Shown: positions 27,838-37,952 of the stretch, piece after piece
Position numbering within the stretch: the first letter of the stretch is position 1
Layout: each line of letters begins with the position of its first letter
From: Vicinamibacterales bacterium
Lineage (GTDB): Bacteria; Acidobacteriota; Vicinamibacteria; Vicinamibacterales; UBA8438
NCBI GenBank assembly: GCA_029940535.1
Contig: JAPYUM010000022.1
Location: 1 to 44,925, forward strand
DNA: 44,925 nucleotides
Direction: 5' to 3'
The notes under the pieces: generated by a model
Seen by the model: the letters and a program-made list of their open reading frames with translations, nothing else
Told to the model about the DNA's origin: nothing
The model's database searches: none
Translations under genes and position numbers: made by a program

Positions 27838-28426
27838 ATGCTCGAAGTGACCCGTGTCACCAACTACTACGACGCGCTGGCGGCCGTGCGTGACGTCACG
27901 TTCACCGCGCGTCCCGGTGAAGTGCTCGGGTATCTCGGGCCCAACGGATCTGGCAAGTCGACCACCGTCAAGATGGTCACCGGACTCCTGACACCGTCAT
28001 CGGGTGTGGTCACGTATCAGGGTCGCGACATCCAGGAAGAGCTGCTCGCCCACCGGAGACGCATCGGATACGTCCCGGAAGCCCCCGAACTCTACACCTA
28101 TCTGACCGGGCCCGAGTACCTGACGCTGATCGGTCGACTTGCGGCAGATCGACGAAGCGGTGCTCGAGAAAAAGATCGAACGGTTCCTCCGGTTGTGGGG
28201 TATCTACGACGACCGCTACGCTTCACTGTCGGCGTATTCGAAAGGGATGAAGCAGAAGATCCTCATCTCGGCCGCGCTGCTGCACGATCCGGAGATCATC
28301 ATCCTCGACGAGCCGTCGTCCGGCCTCGACGTCGGCTCCAGGCTGGTGCTGAAGCAGCTCATCAAGGAGCTGGCGTCCGGGCCGGTTGCTACTGATAGTC
28401 GGCGGCGGCGAGCGAGACGCGAATGA
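27838..28426 (+). pseudogene. ABC transporter ATPase, frameshifted and 3'-truncated
   Basis: ATPase of an ABC-2-type exporter. Frame 1 (27838) has Walker A GPNGSGKST and runs to the Q-loop region RRRIGYVPEAPE; an extra base near 28140 shifts to frame 2 with signature SAYSKGMKQK, Walker B and D-loop IIILDEPSSGLD. The H-loop and everything after LIKELASG are missing: the sequence runs straight into the end of the next gene, whose stop is at 28389. No permease gene follows. GGAGGAG precedes the ATG. Non-functional as ATPase unless completed elsewhere. Confidence 0.85.
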
Positions 28427-29765
28427 CTTCCTCGTCGTTGCGCATCACGATGTGGCGATTCGCGAACGCGGGGTGGGCCCAGACGACACCGCGATCGCCC
28501 CACGTACCGCTGGCACCGCCGCGGGTGCGCGTGGCCGGGGCGATGAGCGACGTCCGATCGAGCTCGGTGTAACCCTCCGGTGTGAACCTGGCCAGAATCA
28601 GTTCGCCGGTCTCACCGACCACGATCACGCGATCATCGTGCTGTATGAAGAACGCCGTCCCCCACCGTTCCCCACCGATCAGCTCTGTCGTTTCCCACAG
28701 CCGCTCACCGGTGCGCGCGTCGAGACACCGCAGCTCGCCATAACTGCCGACGCCGTAGATGTAGTCACCGATGATCAGGGGTGTGGTGATCAACGAGTGC
28801 AGGCCGTCGGTCTCACCTGGCAACTCGCTGCGACTCTGCCCCCGCCACAACTCCTGCGCGCCGGGCCGGTCGCTGTCCAACCGGAGCATGAGCGTCCCGC
28901 GAAAAAAGTGGGTGACCATCAGATACGGACCCGCGGAGATCGGGGTGGAGACCGTCATGGTGCCGATCGGCCACTCGTGCTCCCAGTAGACGGCCCCGGT
29001 CTCCGGGTCGAGCGAGCTCACGCCCTGAGGATGCCAGAGCACGAGCTGCCGTACGCCACCGGACTCGTAGATCATCGGCGGGCTGTAGCCAGCCTCCGAC
29101 ACGAGCGGCAGCGCGCGCCAGACCTCGTCGCCAGTGTCGGTATCGAAGGCCACCACGAGCGCATCTGGCTCGCCGCCGACCACGACGACGAGCCGGTTGC
29201 CGTCGACCAGGGGCGAGTTACTGACTCCGTAGACCGGCACCGTGGCACCGTACTCCGCCACGGTGTCGACCTGCCAGACCACGTCACCGGTGGCCGTGTC
29301 GAGACACAACAGCATGCCGGCCGCGCCGACAATATAGATCTGGTCCCCGGATACCGTAGGTGTGGCGCGTGGCCCGGTGGCGAACGTCCGCATGAGGTTG
29401 CGATAGGTGGCGGGCCATTCGCGTGCCCAGAGAATGTCGCCCGTCTCTTCGTCGAGCGCGAGCATCCGCTCCGCGCCATCCATAGTCCGAGAGCCCGGAT
29501 CCTCCTGGTAGTCGAGCACGAACACCCGTCCGCCGGCGACCACCGGCCCCGCGAAGCCGGGACGGACCGGGACACGCCAGGCCACCGTCAGCCCGTCGTC
29601 GGGGAACCGGTCGACGACACCGGTCTCGGTCCAGACGCCAAGCCGGTCTGGGCCTCGCCACTGCGGCCAGTCCTGCGCTTCGGCGTGCATCGCCAGCAGG
29701 GTCAGCGCGAGACCGCATGCCAACCAGCGACGCGGCGAGCGGGACGAGATTCGTGTTTCTGGCAT
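28389..29765 (-). CDS. Exported PQQ-like beta-propeller protein, paralogue A
   Basis: A 458-residue exported propeller. Signal peptide ends HAEAQ; the mature protein starts DWPQWRGPDRLGVWTETG. At least six blades end in motifs like LALDEETGDILW and LDARTGERLW. It is a close paralogue of the protein at 34795: both share GPRATPTV, WHPQG/WHAGALVSLDPETG, SRSE(L/M)P-ETDGLHS and a common C-terminus VIRVSLAAADY. No PQQ-ADH catalytic motif is seen; it belongs to the PQQ_2/BamB-like group. The start at 29765 was chosen for a regular signal peptide (open frame to 29825). It overlaps the tail of the truncated ABC gene. Confidence 0.88.
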   Translation of the reverse strand: MPETRISSRSPRRWLACGLALTLLAMHAEAQDWPQWRGPDRLGVWTETGVVDRFPDDGLTVAWRVPVRPGFAGPVVAGGRVFVLDYQEDPGSRTMDGAERMLALDEETGDILWAREWPATYRNLMRTFATGPRATPTVSGDQIYIVGAAGMLLCLDTATGDVVWQVDTVAEYGATVPVYGVSNSPLVDGNRLVVVVGGEPDALVVAFDTDTGDEVWRALPLVSEAGYSPPMIYESGGVRQLVLWHPQGVSSLDPETGAVYWEHEWPIGTMTVSTPISAGPYLMVTHFFRGTLMLRLDSDRPGAQELWRGQSRSELPGETDGLHSLITTPLIIGDYIYGVGSYGELRCLDARTGERLWETTELIGGERWGTAFFIQHDDRVIVVGETGELILARFTPEGYTELDRTSLIAPATRTRGGASGTWGDRGVVWAHPAFANRHIVMRNDEEVIRVSLAAADYQ

Positions 29766-30112: not shown

Positions 30113-32197
30113 ATGCGCAAGATGCTCTCCATTCGACGCCCTGTGATCCCTTGTGCCGTTGCGGTTGCGGTTGTCGCGTGTCTGGGTGCGGCTCGCGCGA
30201 CCGCTCAGTCGGGCGCCGCGAAGGGGGAGTGGGGTGTGTTCGGCGCGGACGCGGGTGCCACTCGCTACTCGCCGCTCGACCAGATTGATTCAGACAACGT
30301 CGGGGATCTCGAGGTGGCATGGCGATGGAGCGCACGGAACTATGGCACGCCCCCTCCGTCCGGCCGGACGCAGATCAGTCCCCTCGTGATCGACGGGGTG
30401 TTGTATACGACCATCGGGAACGAACGCAGCGTGGTTGCGATCGAGGCCGCAACGGGTGAGACCCTCTGGAACTGGCGGCCGGGCGATAACGAACGCCGGT
30501 GGGGCGACATCATCGAACCCGTGGCACGGAGCGCAGGGCGCGGCGTGAGCTATTGGACGGATGGGGCCGGAGATGCGCGCATCTTCGTTGTCACGCCAAG
30601 CTATCAGCTTGTCGCGCTCGATGCCCAGACGGGGGCTCGGGTGCTGCAATTTGGTGACGCTGGTGTCATCGACATGATGGATGACCTCCGCTGGGATGAA
30701 CGGCCGGCTGCGCTGCGAGCGGGTAGGGTGGCCAACACCTCGCCGCCGGCGATTCTTGGGAATGCGATTGTGGCATCGATTTCACTGCATACCGGCAGCA
30801 TACCGACAAGGGCCAATCGCCCGGGTATCCGCAATCCCAATGAGGTTTGGCCGATGAACATTCCTGGCGACGTGGTGGCCTACGACGCTCGTACCGGTCG
30901 GACGCTCTGGCGTTTCAATACGGTCCCGAAGGAGGGAGAGTTCGGCGTCGACACCTGGCTCAAGGCGGACGATTTACTCTGGGAGGTTCCGACCGGCACG
31001 CATCCCTGGGTCGAGGAACGCCCCGAACTACTCGATGCCTCCTGGAAATACACGGGGAACGTCGGACATTGGGCCCCCGTGACGGTAGACGAGGAACTCG
31101 GACTATTCTACGTAGCCACCGAAACCGCCACCAACGACTACTACGGTGGCTATCGGCCAGGAGACAACCTGTTCGCCAACTCGGTGTTGGCGCTCGACGC
31201 GGAGACCGGCGAACGGGTGTGGCATTTTCAGGTCACCCATCACGAACTCTGGGACTACGATTTCCCGACAGCCCCCATCCTCGTGGACATTGAGGTCGAT
31301 GGCGTCCTGGTGAGGGCCTTGGTGCAACTCTCGAAGCAGGGATTTGCATACGTACTCGACCGTGCGACAGGCGAACCCGTCTGGCCGATCGAGGAACGGG
31401 CCGTGCCAGAGTCGGACGTTCCGGGAGAGTGGACGTCTCCTACACAGCCCTTTCCCACCAAGCCGCCGGCGTTTGAACGCCAAGGCGTGACTGAGGATGA
31501 CCTCATCGACTTTACTCCGGAGCTTCGGGCCGAAGCACTGCGGATCGTAGAGAATTACCGGCTCGGGCCTCTCTATACTCCGCCGTCCTTGCAAGAGCCG
31601 GGCGTCAATCAAGGGACCCTCGCGCTCCCCAGCGCGGGTGGTGGCGTCAATTGGCCGGGTGGTGCGGTGGATCCCGGGCTGGGTATCCTTTTTGTACCGT
31701 CGAGTACGACCCCGTCGCTGTTCGGATTGATAGACGGCACTGAAGGGACCGGCGTGCGCTACCACATCTCCAGTCGTGCGGGTGTCCCGACCGTCCGTGA
31801 CCTTCCTCTCATCAAACCTCCGTATGGCCGGATCACCGCAATCGATCTGACCGTGGGAGAGATCCTGTGGCAGATCCCGCACGGCGGCACGCCCGGCTAT
31901 ATCCAGGCACATCCGGACCTTCAGGGCGTGGACGTGCCGACGACGGGGAGCCCGACGAAAAGCTCCGGACTTCTTGTAACGTCTACCCTGCTGTTTGCGG
32001 GTGAGGGATCACGGGGCGAACCGGTTCTTCGTGCGTACAACAAGCGGACGGGTGACGTTGTCCATGAGATTCAGCTGCCGGGTGGCCCAACCACCGGGTT
32101 CCCGATCACCTACATGGCGGACGGCCAACAGCACATTGTCGTCGCGGCGTTGGATGAGGAGAACATCGCGGAGTTGGTCGCCTTCACCGTGCCATAG
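30113..32197 (+). CDS. Exported PQQ glucose/alcohol dehydrogenase-like quinoprotein
   Basis: A 694-residue exported quinoprotein of the Gcd-like group. Signal peptide ends RATAQS. GVFGADAGATRYSPLDQI opens the propeller; VAWRWSARNYGTP, WKYTGNVGHWAPVTVDEELGLFYVATE and the catalytic-base block HHELWDYDFPTAP match membrane GDH (HHDLWDxDxP) though no membrane anchor is present. It ends DEENIAELVAFTVP. It may oxidise sugars or polyols in the periplasm. Codons ending in T or A are visibly more frequent here than in the neighbouring genes. No strong Shine-Dalgarno site. Confidence 0.9.
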   Translation: MRKMLSIRRPVIPCAVAVAVVACLGAARATAQSGAAKGEWGVFGADAGATRYSPLDQIDSDNVGDLEVAWRWSARNYGTPPPSGRTQISPLVIDGVLYTTIGNERSVVAIEAATGETLWNWRPGDNERRWGDIIEPVARSAGRGVSYWTDGAGDARIFVVTPSYQLVALDAQTGARVLQFGDAGVIDMMDDLRWDERPAALRAGRVANTSPPAILGNAIVASISLHTGSIPTRANRPGIRNPNEVWPMNIPGDVVAYDARTGRTLWRFNTVPKEGEFGVDTWLKADDLLWEVPTGTHPWVEERPELLDASWKYTGNVGHWAPVTVDEELGLFYVATETATNDYYGGYRPGDNLFANSVLALDAETGERVWHFQVTHHELWDYDFPTAPILVDIEVDGVLVRALVQLSKQGFAYVLDRATGEPVWPIEERAVPESDVPGEWTSPTQPFPTKPPAFERQGVTEDDLIDFTPELRAEALRIVENYRLGPLYTPPSLQEPGVNQGTLALPSAGGGVNWPGGAVDPGLGILFVPSSTTPSLFGLIDGTEGTGVRYHISSRAGVPTVRDLPLIKPPYGRITAIDLTVGEILWQIPHGGTPGYIQAHPDLQGVDVPTTGSPTKSSGLLVTSTLLFAGEGSRGEPVLRAYNKRTGDVVHEIQLPGGPTTGFPITYMADGQQHIVVAALDEENIAELVAFTVP

Positions 32198-32245: not shown

Positions 32246-34537
32246 TCAAAAACGAAACAGTCGATTGATCTTCACCACGAATCCGCGATTCCGCAACGCG
32301 GTACCACCGCGCACCGGCATCAGCAGATCGGTATCGCGGTCCTCGGTGTACACCACGAACAACTCGCTGCCCGGCGAGTACTCCCAGCGCAGCCGGACGT
32401 TCGTACTGAAGATGTCCGCGCTCGAGTTGTATTGCAGGAGCCCACTGAAAAACATCCGCGGGCTGACGGTGTAGTTCACCCGGACGCGGCCCAGGTGGGT
32501 GGTGAAGTCGCCCTGCGGCAAATCCACCCAGTTGAGTGACGCACTCGGCTCGACCGAGAGCTGCGGCGTGACCTCGAGGCGGCCCTGACGGATAGCGACC
32601 ACGGTGTGGTCGCCGCTCCAGAATTGGCCGTGGCGCACGGACACGGTCCCGCTCACCGGACGCTGCTGGCCGAACGCGTAGCTGAGACCGACATCGCGGA
32701 ACCCGTACCCACCGATCGGCAGGAACACGCCCGGTGCAATCTGGAACGGCTCGACGAGGAGTTCGTAGTTGTCGGTCCCGTCAAGCCTGAGGCGATCGCT
32801 GTTCTCGAGCTGAATCTCGAACACGGCGTCTCGGGTCCGGGTCTCGAGCAGACGCGTATCGGCGGCCAGAATATAGTCGAGTGACGCTGACATGGTCAGT
32901 TGCCGGATCCAGTCGATCGATCTGGGTCGCGGGCTGAACCGACCGGAGGCCGACGACCGTCGCATGTTCCCGCGACGCACGAACCCGACCTCGGGCAAGA
33001 AATTGTCCTCGATGATCAGGTGACCCGCATCGAGGCCGTAGCGGTCGCCGGCGTAGTTCAGTTGCCCGAAGTAGCTGCCGTCTTGGCCATCTCGGCCCGT
33101 CGTCTGGGTGCGCGCCGCATACGCCAGCACGTTCAGGTTGTCGAAGAACGCGAAGCGCCCGTCGAGTCCGTAGACCTGGTTCGAGCCGTCGCCCGCGAGC
33201 GACACCGACCGGTTCGTGAAGATGCCACCGATGGTGCTGCGACGCAGCACATCACGCTTGACGCGCACCACGGTGAAATTGGTCGACTCCGCCCCGGCGC
33301 GGAACAGGTCGTCGGTCTGAATGTTCAGGGCCCCGACGTCGAAGGCGCCCACCTTCCCGGTCAACCGACCGCCGGCCTGGAGCGGCACGACGTCGGCCCC
33401 TTGCAGCCCGATACGCCGGCTGAAGAACAGCGTCGGAATTCCGGCACCTCGTGCGTTGGTCCCTCGCGCGAAATCGAAATTACCGCGCCCCTCGAGGAAG
33501 AATTCACGTTTCTCTGGGAAGAAGAGGTTGAACCGGGTCAGGTTGACCTGCTGTTCATCGACCTCGACCTGCGCGAAGTCTGTATTGAAGGTGACGTCCG
33601 CCGTGAGATTGCGAGTGATTCCGTACTTGACGTCCAGACCAACGTCGCCGTCCGACTCGTTGCGAGTCGGCGGGGTGGCGTTCACATCGGTCGTGACCCC
33701 GCCGATCGCATACGGTTTGATCTCGAGATTGAGGCTCTCGGAGGGCACCTCGAGCCCGACCAGGGAGCCGGCCCCCGACACTCGCCACAGCCCGGCGATG
33801 ACGCTGTTCCCGCGCGCGGCCGAGATCGGCAGGGCGGTCAAATACGACGCTTCGGTACGGCGGCGGATGATGCGACGTAGCTGGATGCCCCAGAGCTGTT
33901 CTTCGGTGGGACGGTAACGCAGCGATTTGAACGGGATACGCATCTCCACCGTCCACCCGCCGTCGAACCGCCCGGTTCGAGAGTCCCAGATGGCGTTCCA
34001 GTCGGTGTTGACGCTGCCGCCCTCGTTCGTGATCGCGAAATCGGAAAACCCGCCGAGCGGGGTGACCAGAAACGCCAGGCCGTTCCGACGGTCGTAGAAG
34101 GCGTCGAGCATCACGGAGAACGAGTCGTTGTTGCGAAGCTGAATGACGTCGCGCCGCATCTCGTTCGCCACCCACTGCGACGTCGGGGCACGGTCATAGC
34201 ACCGGGCGGAGATATAGATATTGTCGTCGTCGAAGAAGATCCAGGCTTCGGTGCGCTCACTCCCGGCGGCGCCCTCATCCGGCAGTTGCTGCACGAAGTC
34301 GGTGATGAACTGGACCGAGTCGTAGAACGGCTCGTCGAGTCGGCCGTCGAGCTCCAGCGGGTCGCTCACTCGTGTGGCACGGACCGTGGCCCGGCCGTCC
34401 GGGTCGCGGGCCACCACCTCGGGCGCGATCGGAGGCGCCGGGCCCTGCAGGCGGGAGGCCAACGTTTCGGACACCAGCTGAGGCGAGGCGGCGGTCGCCG
34501 ACAGCAGCAGGCAGCACCCGGCCCCAACGAGGCGCAT
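32246..34537 (-). CDS. DUF5916 outer-membrane protein with CBM9-like N-terminus, paralogue 2
   Basis: A 763-residue paralogue of the protein at 14103. Signal peptide (LLLSATAASPQL), CBM9-like domain with LELDGRLDEPFYDS and IFFDDDNIYISARC, the DUF5916 block LFFPEKREFFLEGRGNFDF and a strand-rich C-terminal half ending INRLFRF, with the terminal Phe typical of outer-membrane barrels. Start at 34537 is one of two options; an in-frame ATG at 34585 adds 16 residues before the leader. The 34537 start codon lies inside a palindrome. It converges with the GDH-like gene and diverges from the propeller at 34795. Confidence 0.88.
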   Translation of the reverse strand: MRLVGAGCCLLLSATAASPQLVSETLASRLQGPAPPIAPEVVARDPDGRATVRATRVSDPLELDGRLDEPFYDSVQFITDFVQQLPDEGAAGSERTEAWIFFDDDNIYISARCYDRAPTSQWVANEMRRDVIQLRNNDSFSVMLDAFYDRRNGLAFLVTPLGGFSDFAITNEGGSVNTDWNAIWDSRTGRFDGGWTVEMRIPFKSLRYRPTEEQLWGIQLRRIIRRRTEASYLTALPISAARGNSVIAGLWRVSGAGSLVGLEVPSESLNLEIKPYAIGGVTTDVNATPPTRNESDGDVGLDVKYGITRNLTADVTFNTDFAQVEVDEQQVNLTRFNLFFPEKREFFLEGRGNFDFARGTNARGAGIPTLFFSRRIGLQGADVVPLQAGGRLTGKVGAFDVGALNIQTDDLFRAGAESTNFTVVRVKRDVLRRSTIGGIFTNRSVSLAGDGSNQVYGLDGRFAFFDNLNVLAYAARTQTTGRDGQDGSYFGQLNYAGDRYGLDAGHLIIEDNFLPEVGFVRRGNMRRSSASGRFSPRPRSIDWIRQLTMSASLDYILAADTRLLETRTRDAVFEIQLENSDRLRLDGTDNYELLVEPFQIAPGVFLPIGGYGFRDVGLSYAFGQQRPVSGTVSVRHGQFWSGDHTVVAIRQGRLEVTPQLSVEPSASLNWVDLPQGDFTTHLGRVRVNYTVSPRMFFSGLLQYNSSADIFSTNVRLRWEYSPGSELFVVYTEDRDTDLLMPVRGGTALRNRGFVVKINRLFRF

Positions 34538-34565
34538 CGTAACGATGCGACCCCGCGACGCGGGG
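34533..34565. promoter_or_regulatory. Two adjacent palindromes at DUF5916 start
   Basis: CGCATCGT-A-ACGATGCG (34533-34549) covers the proposed start codon of the DUF5916 gene, and CCCCGCG-A-CGCGGGG (34551-34565) follows directly. Both are perfect with a single central base. In RNA they could hide the start codon. Confidence 0.4.
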
Positions 34566-34794
34566 CGAGAACGTGGCCAAGGCATGCGAATCGAATGGGT
34601 GGTGACTGAATGTTGCCGGGACCGGCGACCGATACAGTGTTCTGTGATCGCCCGCGCGGTATGCCCGGGCGTCCAGATGCTACCGTCGCCGGTATAAACT
34701 TGTCGAACGCCAATCGGTGGGCCAGTTGGCCGCCACGCGAAACGAACCGACCGCCCCGTGCCACTGTGGCGTGGCAACGGCAGGAGTGTAGACG

Positions 34795-36159
34795 ATGAGA
34801 TTTGTGAACATGTCCCGGCCGGTGGTGCTCGGCCTGGTTCTAGCCGGCGCCACCGTGGCCACCGCTCCCCTCGCCGCCAACGACTGGCCGGAATGGCGCG
34901 GGGCGAACCGAGACGGCGTCTGGACCGAAACCGGGATCGTCGCTGACCTCCCCAACGAATTGAACGTGAAGTGGCGAATCCCCGTCAACGCCGGATTTTC
35001 AGGGGCGGCGGTGGCTGACGGCCGTGTCTTCATCACGGACTGGGCTGAAGATGCGGGTACCCGCACGATGGATGGCAGAGAGCGGGCCCTCGCGATTGAC
35101 GAGGCCTCCGGCGAGGTCCTCTGGACCACGGAATGGCCCACCTCCTATCGCATGCTGATGATCTCGTACGCCATCGGTCCGCGCGCGACACCCACGGTCG
35201 ATGGCGACCGCGTGTATGTCGTCGGAGCGGCCGGTGACCTGTTCTGCCTGAGTGTCGAGACCGGTGAGATCCTGTGGGAGAAGCACTACATCGACGACTA
35301 CGACAGTTTCATTCCAACCTGGGGCGTCACCACTGCGCCGATCGTTGATGGAGACCGGCTGATTACGGTCGTCGGTGGAGAATCGGGCGGCCTCGTCATG
35401 GCGTTCAACAAGCAGACGGGCGAAGAAGTGTGGCGCTCGCTCGACGTCGTCGGCGAGATGGGCTACGGCCAGCCGATCATCATCGAGGCGGGCGGGACGC
35501 GACAGCTCATCGTGTGGCACGCCGGGGCCCTGGTCTCGCTCGACCCGGAGACCGGCGAACCGCATTGGGAAGAAGTGTGGGAGGCCGGTGCCGGGATGTC
35601 GGTGGCGACGCCGGTGCACAGCGGTAACTACCTGCTCGTGTCGCAGTTCTACAACGGGTCGCTCATGATGCAACTCGACCAGGATCGGCCGGACGCCGAA
35701 CTGCTGTGGAAGGGCAAGAGCCGGAGCGAGATGCCGGACGAGACGGACGGGTTGCACTCGATGATCACCACGCCCTGGATTGAGGGAAACCACATCTACG
35801 GGGTCGGCAGCTACGGCGAGCTCCGCGGTCTGGACGCCCGGACAGGCGAACGTCTGTGGATGAGTGACGAGATGACCGCCCAGGCTCGCTGGGGCACCGC
35901 GTTCGCCGTCAAGCAGGGCGACCGGTATCTGGTCGTGAACGACGACGGCGTACTCATCAACGCCCGATTCACGCCGCAGGGATATGTCGAACAGGGCCGC
36001 GTGCACCTGCTCGACGCGACCGGCGATTCTGGATACGGACCAGGCAAGCGATTCGACCGGAAAGTAGGCTGGAGCCACCCGGCGTTTGCAAACGGACACA
36101 TCATTCATCGGAACGACAACGAGATGATCCGCGTGTCGCTGCTGGCCGCTGACTACTAG
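34795..36159 (+). CDS. Exported PQQ-like beta-propeller protein, paralogue B
   Basis: A 454-residue exported propeller; signal peptide ends PLAAN, then DWPEWRGANRDGVWTETGIV. Blade ends such as VSLDPETGEPHW and LDARTGERLW recur. It is a close paralogue of the protein at 28389. It lacks obvious PQQ-ADH catalytic motifs. AGGAG precedes the ATG at 34795. The stop TAG at 36157-36159 overlaps the GTG start of the LDI-fold gene by one base, so translation of the two is probably coupled and their products made in a fixed ratio. Confidence 0.9.
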   Translation: MRFVNMSRPVVLGLVLAGATVATAPLAANDWPEWRGANRDGVWTETGIVADLPNELNVKWRIPVNAGFSGAAVADGRVFITDWAEDAGTRTMDGRERALAIDEASGEVLWTTEWPTSYRMLMISYAIGPRATPTVDGDRVYVVGAAGDLFCLSVETGEILWEKHYIDDYDSFIPTWGVTTAPIVDGDRLITVVGGESGGLVMAFNKQTGEEVWRSLDVVGEMGYGQPIIIEAGGTRQLIVWHAGALVSLDPETGEPHWEEVWEAGAGMSVATPVHSGNYLLVSQFYNGSLMMQLDQDRPDAELLWKGKSRSEMPDETDGLHSMITTPWIEGNHIYGVGSYGELRGLDARTGERLWMSDEMTAQARWGTAFAVKQGDRYLVVNDDGVLINARFTPQGYVEQGRVHLLDATGDSGYGPGKRFDRKVGWSHPAFANGHIIHRNDNEMIRVSLLAADY

Positions 36160-37952
36160 TGGCCACCAACGGCGGCCGTTCGCGCCGCGATTTCGTGAAA
36201 CAGATCGGCGTGGCGACGGGCGCAGCCGCCTTGGCGCCATCGGCGCAAGCGTTGGGCCAGTCGCCGGCCCCGGGACCGACGTTTCTGCAGGACACGCCTC
36301 GGTCCGTGTTCCCGACCCTGAACGGCCGGACCCGTGGGTGGTTACGCTTCCTCTGGGAGAAATCGACCACCGACGACGATTGGAGCTCGGCCGGCATCCC
36401 GCACCAGTGGTGGGACCGCTACTCGGCTCCGGTGGTTCTGAGTTACGGCCGGTTCGACCTGTCGTTCTCCTCCTATGCGCTGCTGTTGATGGCGGACCAG
36501 ACGCCCGCTTGGCGCGAGGCGTATACGGAGATCGCGGACGGCCTGGCCAGTCGCTATCCGACCTATTGGGGCGCCATCGACTGGCTCACCCAGATTGGCG
36601 ACGACCCGAAACGGGCGAACTATCCACCACGGGTCATGGGTGCGATCCCCGACCGATTGAAGGGGAACTACAACCGATTCGGATGGACCGCAAACGGCGT
36701 CGAGCCGTGGGGTCTGCAACGGGACCCGATCGGCGCTGACGGGTATCTCTTCTTTCGGGGTTGGTTCACGCTGCTCCTGTCGATCTACAAGTACGTCTCC
36801 GGCGACGACAAGTACACGCGGCCGTTCCCCGTGACCGGCTATGGCGACGAGGTCTTCGAGTGGGACCACCATCGAATCGCCGCGCAGATGGAGCGCCAGT
36901 ACCAGGAGCACCCGGAGGGGCCGCAGTGCGAGAACACCAAGATCTGGTTCTACTGCAACGCGGCCGGTGGTCTCGGGATGTATCTCTACGACCGGGTGTT
37001 CGGCCGCGACACACACCGGGCGTTCGAGAACTTCTTGGAGTATTCACGCGACAACTACATGGGGGTGGGCAGCGACGGCTCACTGGAGTGGGTCACCAAC
37101 TACTACGATCCGGTCGTGAACCACAAGTTGAATGGCGGGCCGGCGGCGGGTATTGCCACGGCGTTCATGGTGCTGCCGCAGAATCGCGAAGTGGCGACCA
37201 CGCTCTATGACGCGGCCGCCAACGCGCTGGGATGGAGAAACGCCCAGACTCCGATTCGCGCCAACGCCACCGGACTGCTGCTGGCCCGGGCGCTGGGTGA
37301 CCACACGGCGGTCGCGCGGCTGCGGGCGGCGGCTGAACAGGCCTACGAACCTCGATACTTTGGTGACCACGACGAGAAGTTCGGTTGGTTCTTCGGGTTG
37401 AACGAGGCGTATCCGCGCGGACAACAGAGCGCCACCATGATGGTGTCTGAAGTCGGCGAAGATGGCGCCTGGCTGCGGGCGTTCGAGACCCCGCACCTGG
37501 ACAAGTTCGAGGCCCCGACCGTCGAAGGCGTCGACTTCCCATCGCTCGGGCTCTACCAGGCGTGGAACGACACCGACAGCGGCACGCTCCACGTTGGCAC
37601 CTACCCCACGTCACCGGACCGGCAGGGCGTGCAAACGAGCTGGCGTGTGACCAATCTGCCGAACGCTGGTGAGGTCTACGTCCTGTGCGACGGTCAACCG
37701 TTCGACCGTTTCCAGGTCACCGGAAACGGCACGATTGAGCTCGACACGACCATCGACACCCAGCAGTACCAGATCTTCACCGGATACCGGGGTCCGGGTG
37801 GGCGGCCCGTGGCCCGCCGGGAAGTGCCACGTGCCGTAGGCACCGCGGCCGCCATGGTCGCGCAACCGGCAAGCGGAGATGCAACGGCCGTGCGCCGCGC
37901 CACCAGCGCGTTCGCGCCAGGCGGCGGCCCCGGCTGTCCGTGCTGCGCCTGA
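36159..37952 (+). CDS. Tat-exported linalool dehydratase/isomerase-domain protein
   Basis: A 597-residue protein with a twin-arginine leader (SRRDFVK at 8-14). The middle part resembles linalool dehydratase-isomerase (PF18566): DPIGADGYLFFRGWFTLLL (189-207) corresponds to the DPI-YKGHLNLMYG block, and CENTKIWFYCN has Cys257 and Cys266 with the same 9-residue spacing as catalytic Cys171/Cys180 of Castellaniella LDI. The LDI His of the YKGH block is Trp202 here. An additional C-terminal region of about 200 residues ends GCPCCA. LDI interconverts linalool, geraniol and myrcene; this homologue's substrate is unknown. It begins with GTG overlapping the propeller stop. Confidence 0.8.
   Translation: MATNGGRSRRDFVKQIGVATGAAALAPSAQALGQSPAPGPTFLQDTPRSVFPTLNGRTRGWLRFLWEKSTTDDDWSSAGIPHQWWDRYSAPVVLSYGRFDLSFSSYALLLMADQTPAWREAYTEIADGLASRYPTYWGAIDWLTQIGDDPKRANYPPRVMGAIPDRLKGNYNRFGWTANGVEPWGLQRDPIGADGYLFFRGWFTLLLSIYKYVSGDDKYTRPFPVTGYGDEVFEWDHHRIAAQMERQYQEHPEGPQCENTKIWFYCNAAGGLGMYLYDRVFGRDTHRAFENFLEYSRDNYMGVGSDGSLEWVTNYYDPVVNHKLNGGPAAGIATAFMVLPQNREVATTLYDAAANALGWRNAQTPIRANATGLLLARALGDHTAVARLRAAAEQAYEPRYFGDHDEKFGWFFGLNEAYPRGQQSATMMVSEVGEDGAWLRAFETPHLDKFEAPTVEGVDFPSLGLYQAWNDTDSGTLHVGTYPTSPDRQGVQTSWRVTNLPNAGEVYVLCDGQPFDRFQVTGNGTIELDTTIDTQQYQIFTGYRGPGGRPVARREVPRAVGTAAAMVAQPASGDATAVRRATSAFAPGGGPGCPCCA

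Follow-up and report, generated by a model that had tools for sequence, protein, structure and literature searches.

The gene pair and its features

The stretch of DNA analysed here (the window; 44,925 nt, forward strand) belongs to contig JAPYUM010000022.1 of a Vicinamibacterales bacterium (Acidobacteriota). It contains a gene for a propeller protein, followed by a gene for a protein related to linalool dehydratase/isomerase (LDI). The two genes and the features of the second are as follows:

34795..36159, + strand: propeller gene; ORF with an ATG start, 454 aa, BamB/PQQ_2-type beta-propeller (PF13360, 116 bits)
36157..36161, + strand: TAGTG, propeller stop over the GTG start of the LDI-like gene, read from the sequence
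36159..37952, + strand: LDI-like gene; ORF with a GTG start, 597 aa (Pfam Ldi, 59 bits)
36180..36263, + strand: predicted Tat signal region SRRDFVKQIGVATGAAALAPSAQALGQS (TIGR01409, residues 8-35)
36453..36455, + strand: F99, in the place of LDI Tyr66, located via the bridge sequence L065
36762..36764, + strand: W202, in the place of LDI His129, from the alignment
36927..36956, + strand: C257-E-N-T-K-x-W-x-x-C266, the invariant counterpart of the LDI catalytic cysteine pair
37506..37793, + strand: extra C-terminal beta domain (about residues 450-545), past the end of the LDI match; pLDDT about 95
37809..37934, + strand: variable Ala-rich linker, predicted to be disordered (pLDDT below 50 for residues 557-597)
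37935..37946, + strand: terminal C593-P-C595-C596 (CxCC) tail, recognised by its conservation in members of the family

The TAG of the propeller gene (36157-36159) and the GTG of the LDI-like gene (36159-36161) have one base in common. This GTG is the earliest start codon of the LDI-like open frame and lies upstream of the twin-arginine codons; no terminator or promoter was found between the two genes. The one-base overlap of a propeller and an LDI-domain ORF, first noticed in a sequence-only reading of the region, is borne out by the ORF coordinates and the sequence. Elsewhere the TAGTG overlap occurs only in a sister genome (G460), where the LDI gene is broken, and the other propeller/LDI-like pairs are separated by gaps of 27-141 bases. 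The LDI-like gene is under purifying selection, with a dN/dS of 0.10 relative to its nearest relative and of 0.10 to 0.24 overall; the observation is more than chance.

Family, fold and active site of the LDI-like protein

By sequence and structure prediction, the product of 36159-37952 is a member of the LDI superfamily, because it scores 59 bits against Pfam Ldi (PF18566; cut-off 26.1, E 7e-16), because a profile built from 22 relatives matches the PDB LDI crystal sequences at E about 1e-11, and because its template-free AlphaFold model matches the LDI crystals (Z 31.4, rmsd 2.8, 320 residues; mean pLDDT 78). LDI was the sole PDB family with a significant E-value in the profile search. The model, which is ligand-free and rests on 22 related sequences, predicts an (alpha/alpha)6 barrel that superposes on the LDI crystals; sugar epimerases form the next-best fold family at Z 19, and the LDI fold proposed earlier for the second protein thus stood up to the structural check. 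LDI homologues had also been called rare, and they are indeed uncommon, being found in 4 of 396 genomes of the phylum and in 3 of 398 in the phylum of a Porticoccaceae relative. Relatives with the same added parts occur in Acidobacteriota, Gemmatimonadota and Pseudomonadota.

Like the LDI of Castellaniella defragrans (5G1U, 5HLR, 5I3T), to which it is 17% identical, the protein combines a predicted (alpha/alpha)6 barrel with a cysteine pair of the C-E-x7-C type, a DPI motif and predicted export. C257 and C266 align with C171 and C180 of the 5G1U chain (C170 and C179 in the papers) and are invariant in 28 distinct complete members. In LDI, these two cysteines must be reduced and their thiols take part in catalysis on the alkenol; replacement by Ala or Ser abolishes activity, and a reductant is needed in vitro (PMC6600392). 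The rest of the pocket is unlike that of the Castellaniella enzyme. The position of His129 is occupied by W202 (Trp in about 89% of members), and that of Tyr66, placed through the closer LDI relative L065, by F99, which is invariant in the subfamily. The protein contains six cysteines in all (C257, C266, C510, C593, C595 and C596), with no counterparts of the C49-C102 capping disulfide of LDI (C48-C101 in paper numbering, PMC6600392). The invariant D73 and D86 fall within the stretch of LDI Asp39 and Tyr45, where the N-terminal alignment is gapped; D73 is a candidate for the Asp39 position. Since His129, Tyr66 and the disulfide are not kept, the protein cannot be presumed active on linalool, geraniol or myrcene, and its chemistry may differ considerably from that of LDI; in view of the altered active site, the name "linalool dehydratase" should be avoided.

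The bridge sequence L065 comes from a genome in the phylum of the relative L025 and carries two overlapping tandem ORFs (L065:1165-3455), the first of which encodes a near relative of LDI (E 4e-41 to PDB LDI), with both His129 and the cysteine pair retained.

Outside the barrel, the protein is a predicted Tat substrate, again unlike Castellaniella LDI, which has a Sec signal: the motif SRRDFVK occupies residues 8-14, and TIGR01409 scores 21.4 bits against a cut-off of 16.7, in agreement with the Tat motif seen in the sequence-only reading. The twin Arg is present in the complete members from Acidobacteriota and Gemmatimonadota and absent from the relatives L025, L029 and L026. The extra beta domain and the CxCC tail also distinguish the protein from Castellaniella LDI. 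The beta domain is beta-sandwich-like in the model, and C-terminal domains of glycoside hydrolases match it weakly (best Z 9.1 over 84 residues); the naming of a structural relative was set aside, the matches being weak alone. The linker that follows is, besides the signal peptide, the least conserved part of the protein (mean conservation 0.39 in columns 551-575). The CxCC cysteines are present in 27 of the 28 distinct complete members, with a conservation close to that of the catalytic pair; the sole exception, from Ktedonospora (L026), has the cysteine pair but lacks the tail. The tail is also found in L025 and L029, both of which are without a visible signal peptide. The "Cys pair" of the earlier reading can be understood as C257/C266 or as the terminal C593-x-C595-C596, and it holds under both meanings, as both are conserved.

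A scan of the bacterium's own genome for C-x-C-C-x-TGA and C-x-C-C-x-x-TAA/TGA gave no other credible gene end, and for the scanned forms the CxCC was therefore rejected as a general sorting tag. The locus L089, considered as a second CxCC tail, was rejected because it is antisense to another gene. No description of this CxCC tail was found in the literature searched, which took in few subscription papers, and the three-cysteine tail is apparently undescribed so far.

A further LDI-superfamily enzyme longer than LDI is Lis of Thauera linaloolentis, which, in the excerpts of its description used here (PMC4791888), also needs a reductant for activity. Unlike the present protein, Lis has its catalytic domain in the cytosol, preceded by four transmembrane helices; the comparison is by description only, and the same excerpts mention no CxCC tail.

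Distribution of the pair and the propeller family

We searched 149 genomes of the order for the window's LDI-like gene and propeller. The LDI-like gene has a match in 26 of them (one match being a remnant), a propeller copy at 74% identity or above occurs in 16, and the two are adjacent in only five (G000, G481, G448, G417 and G466). Adjacency was also observed in L007, L008, L009 and L014, which are apparently the same records or genomes as G481, G448, G417 and G466. In the near-complete genome G407, both genes lie on one contig, far apart, and in other genomes they sit on separate contigs; most LDI-like genes have no adjoining propeller of this type. The neighbourhoods come from draft genomes, some in many contigs and with up to 10% contamination, and a lack of adjacency can be taken as firm only when both genes are internal to their contigs. 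The LDI-like gene of the remaining genera has varying surroundings (radical SAM, sulfatase with TPR genes, RecA, penicillin amidase, Fic, restriction-modification), and there was no constant partner gene among the neighbours checked.

Two congeners retain the propeller beside a decayed LDI gene. The propeller of G460 is intact and under equal constraint (dN/dS 0.083), and the LDI gene beside it survives as a remnant that has the same TAGTG at its start, together with internal losses and a stop; in G489 the CPCC-coding end, located between the propeller and an efflux gene, is all that is left. Given this, and the adjacency in 5 of 149 genomes, a conserved propeller-LDI operon was rejected. We also considered whether the adjacency arose twice, as the LDI of G466 clusters with those of another taxonomic family. 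The tree is compatible with one ancestral adjacency that was lost after transfer, in a group of 10 rows (support 89/88, below the starred level); a double origin was therefore not counted for a functional link.

Remnants of the LDI-like gene adjoining intact propellers in two congeners lie at L033:2863-3120 and L035:1887-2000, and the CPCC-coding stretch survives in both.

Like the BamB/PQQ-type propellers (PF13360, PF01011), the neighbouring protein has propeller repeats and is probably exported, its N-terminal hydrophobic stretch resembling a Sec signal by eye. Unlike them, it falls far below the cut-offs of the specific models, contains one cysteine and has dozens of copies in the genome. 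It scores 54.5 bits against the PQQ-alcohol-dehydrogenase model TIGR03075 (cut-off 480), and 59 and 67 bits against the BamB models TIGR03300 and NF008351 (cut-offs 285 and 423, respectively). PQQ dehydrogenases have a vicinal Cys-Cys disulfide at the PQQ site; with a single cysteine in the whole protein, the propeller is without it. Its own genome has 44 places that match it, eight of which, itself included, show at least 49% identity. The propeller belongs to a large family of paralogues and is a lineage-restricted neighbour, not an obligate partner, of the LDI-like protein, a result that spares effort on a probably false complex. We are highly confident of the family, the fold and the non-obligate pairing taken jointly. 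No paper linking LDI with propellers or with Acidobacteria was found in the literature searched, which included few subscription papers.

The propeller is accompanied more steadily by a DUF5916 gene than by the LDI gene; this DUF5916 gene is found 5' of the propeller in most loci examined, including some that lack LDI. The DUF5916 protein of the window (32246-34777, - strand) has a weak CBM9 match, and its gene is divergent from that of the propeller.

The window also contains a second propeller paralogue (28389-29690, - strand; 56% identical), relatives of which are found in L008, L009 and L010 at a distance of about 4-7 kb from the LDI-like gene. Upstream of the pair, and separated from it by an opposite-strand gene, is a full-length PQQ-type dehydrogenase-like protein (30113-32197, + strand; PF01011, 567 bits), with 97% identity in L007 over the part compared.

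Possible function of the protein and its cysteine tail

In the explanation that we prefer, the LDI-like enzyme would fold in the cytoplasm, be exported by the Tat system and work without a partner protein. It would be a lyase or isomerase that needs no cofactor, and its substrate would be an unsaturated alcohol or similar compound, small and probably hydrophobic. C257 and C266 would serve as acid/base thiols in a pocket without the His and Tyr of LDI, and the CxCC arm would be a tethered dithiol that keeps the catalytic cysteines reduced or returns them to that state. Judged from sequence and model, a stand-alone periplasmic, cysteine-based lyase or isomerase of the LDI type has, as an overall explanation, about an even chance of being right, and the cysteine-based lyase/isomerase step, taken by itself, could just as readily prove true as false. 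The role of the CxCC as a redox arm is a tentative and rather doubtful suggestion, made because LDI and Lis are known to need reduced cysteines or a reductant; the C-terminal redox arms of thioredoxin reductase and mercuric reductase offer a comparison in principle. A function of the tail is favoured by its being kept while the linker before it varies. Against a redox arm, L026 has the cysteine pair without the tail, and L025 and L029 have the tail without a visible signal peptide, where thiol reduction outside the cytoplasm would not be at issue. The fuller proposal, of a hitherto undescribed LDI subfamily whose mobile CxCC arm reaches the active-site pair and keeps its thiols reduced outside the cytoplasm, with a new substrate range resulting from Trp202 and Phe99, is a little more doubtful still.

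Other explanations bear on the tail itself. It could be a site for Cu(I), Zn or Fe, in which case the LDI-fold protein would be an enzyme that depends on metal or would serve to carry metal: C-x-C-C is a plausible set of soft-metal ligands, CxCC motifs appear in excerpts of papers on COG0523-family metal chaperones, and a gene judged by similarity to be of the Acr efflux type lies downstream in the window. We nevertheless consider a metal site unlikely, as the contexts differ in nearly every genus with no metal-handling gene recurring beside the family, and no cofactor was seen in Lis (PMC4791888). A tail that links subunits together, or anchors the protein to a partner or the envelope, through disulfide or thioether bonds would suit an enzyme such as LDI, a pentamer whose active site lies between subunits (PMC6600392) that a flexible arm could bridge; three cysteines in four residues exceed the need of a simple cross-link, however, and the two relatives without a visible signal peptide keep the tail, so that this role appears distinctly unlikely.

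The remaining alternatives concern the enzyme as a whole. A barrel acting on a sugar or other polymer, in the manner of the many (alpha/alpha)6 enzymes that bear a C-terminal beta domain, such as glycoside hydrolases and epimerases, and resembling LDI only in appearance, would accord with the fold matches to cellobiose epimerases and GH105/GH76 (Z 17-19), with the similarity of the C-terminal domain to glycoside hydrolase beta domains and with the sulfatase that adjoins the gene in Gemmatimonadota. It is quite improbable, since LDI is much the closer fold, the LDI cysteine pair is invariant and the profile search matched no other PDB family significantly. The sequence-only reading had instead joined the propeller and the LDI-like protein into an exported module that converts and oxidises allylic alcohols, and had called for a search for the same gene pair in related genomes. 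Co-directional adjacent genes in five genomes of several genera, the overlap in the window and the nearby dehydrogenase-like gene at 30113-32197 are consistent with such a module. The search, however, confined the pair to those five genomes of the order; two congeners keep an intact propeller beside LDI remnants, the genes are distant in G407 and on different contigs elsewhere, and most LDI-like genes are not next to this propeller. The oxidising role fared no better, as the propeller has many paralogues and no PQQ-dehydrogenase signature. We regard the two-protein module as very improbable.

LDI is a rare cofactor-free enzyme that converts an alkenol to an alkene and is of industrial interest, and its two thiols must stay reduced in an oxidising compartment. 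An exported subfamily, diverse in sequence and differing from LDI in its pocket and in having a cysteine arm, would enlarge the available set of enzymes, and the conserved arm suggests how such thiols could be protected.

Two further sequences were noted among the relatives. A distant LDI-family protein at L064:1327-2901 (E 1e-108 to Pfam Ldi) is without the CxCC end, and its gene adjoins one resembling those for periplasmic binding proteins. A record titled as a Bifidobacterium breve MAG (L016) has an LDI-like protein that agrees in tail and length with its counterpart in L056, from the window's order, and the record is probably mislabelled.
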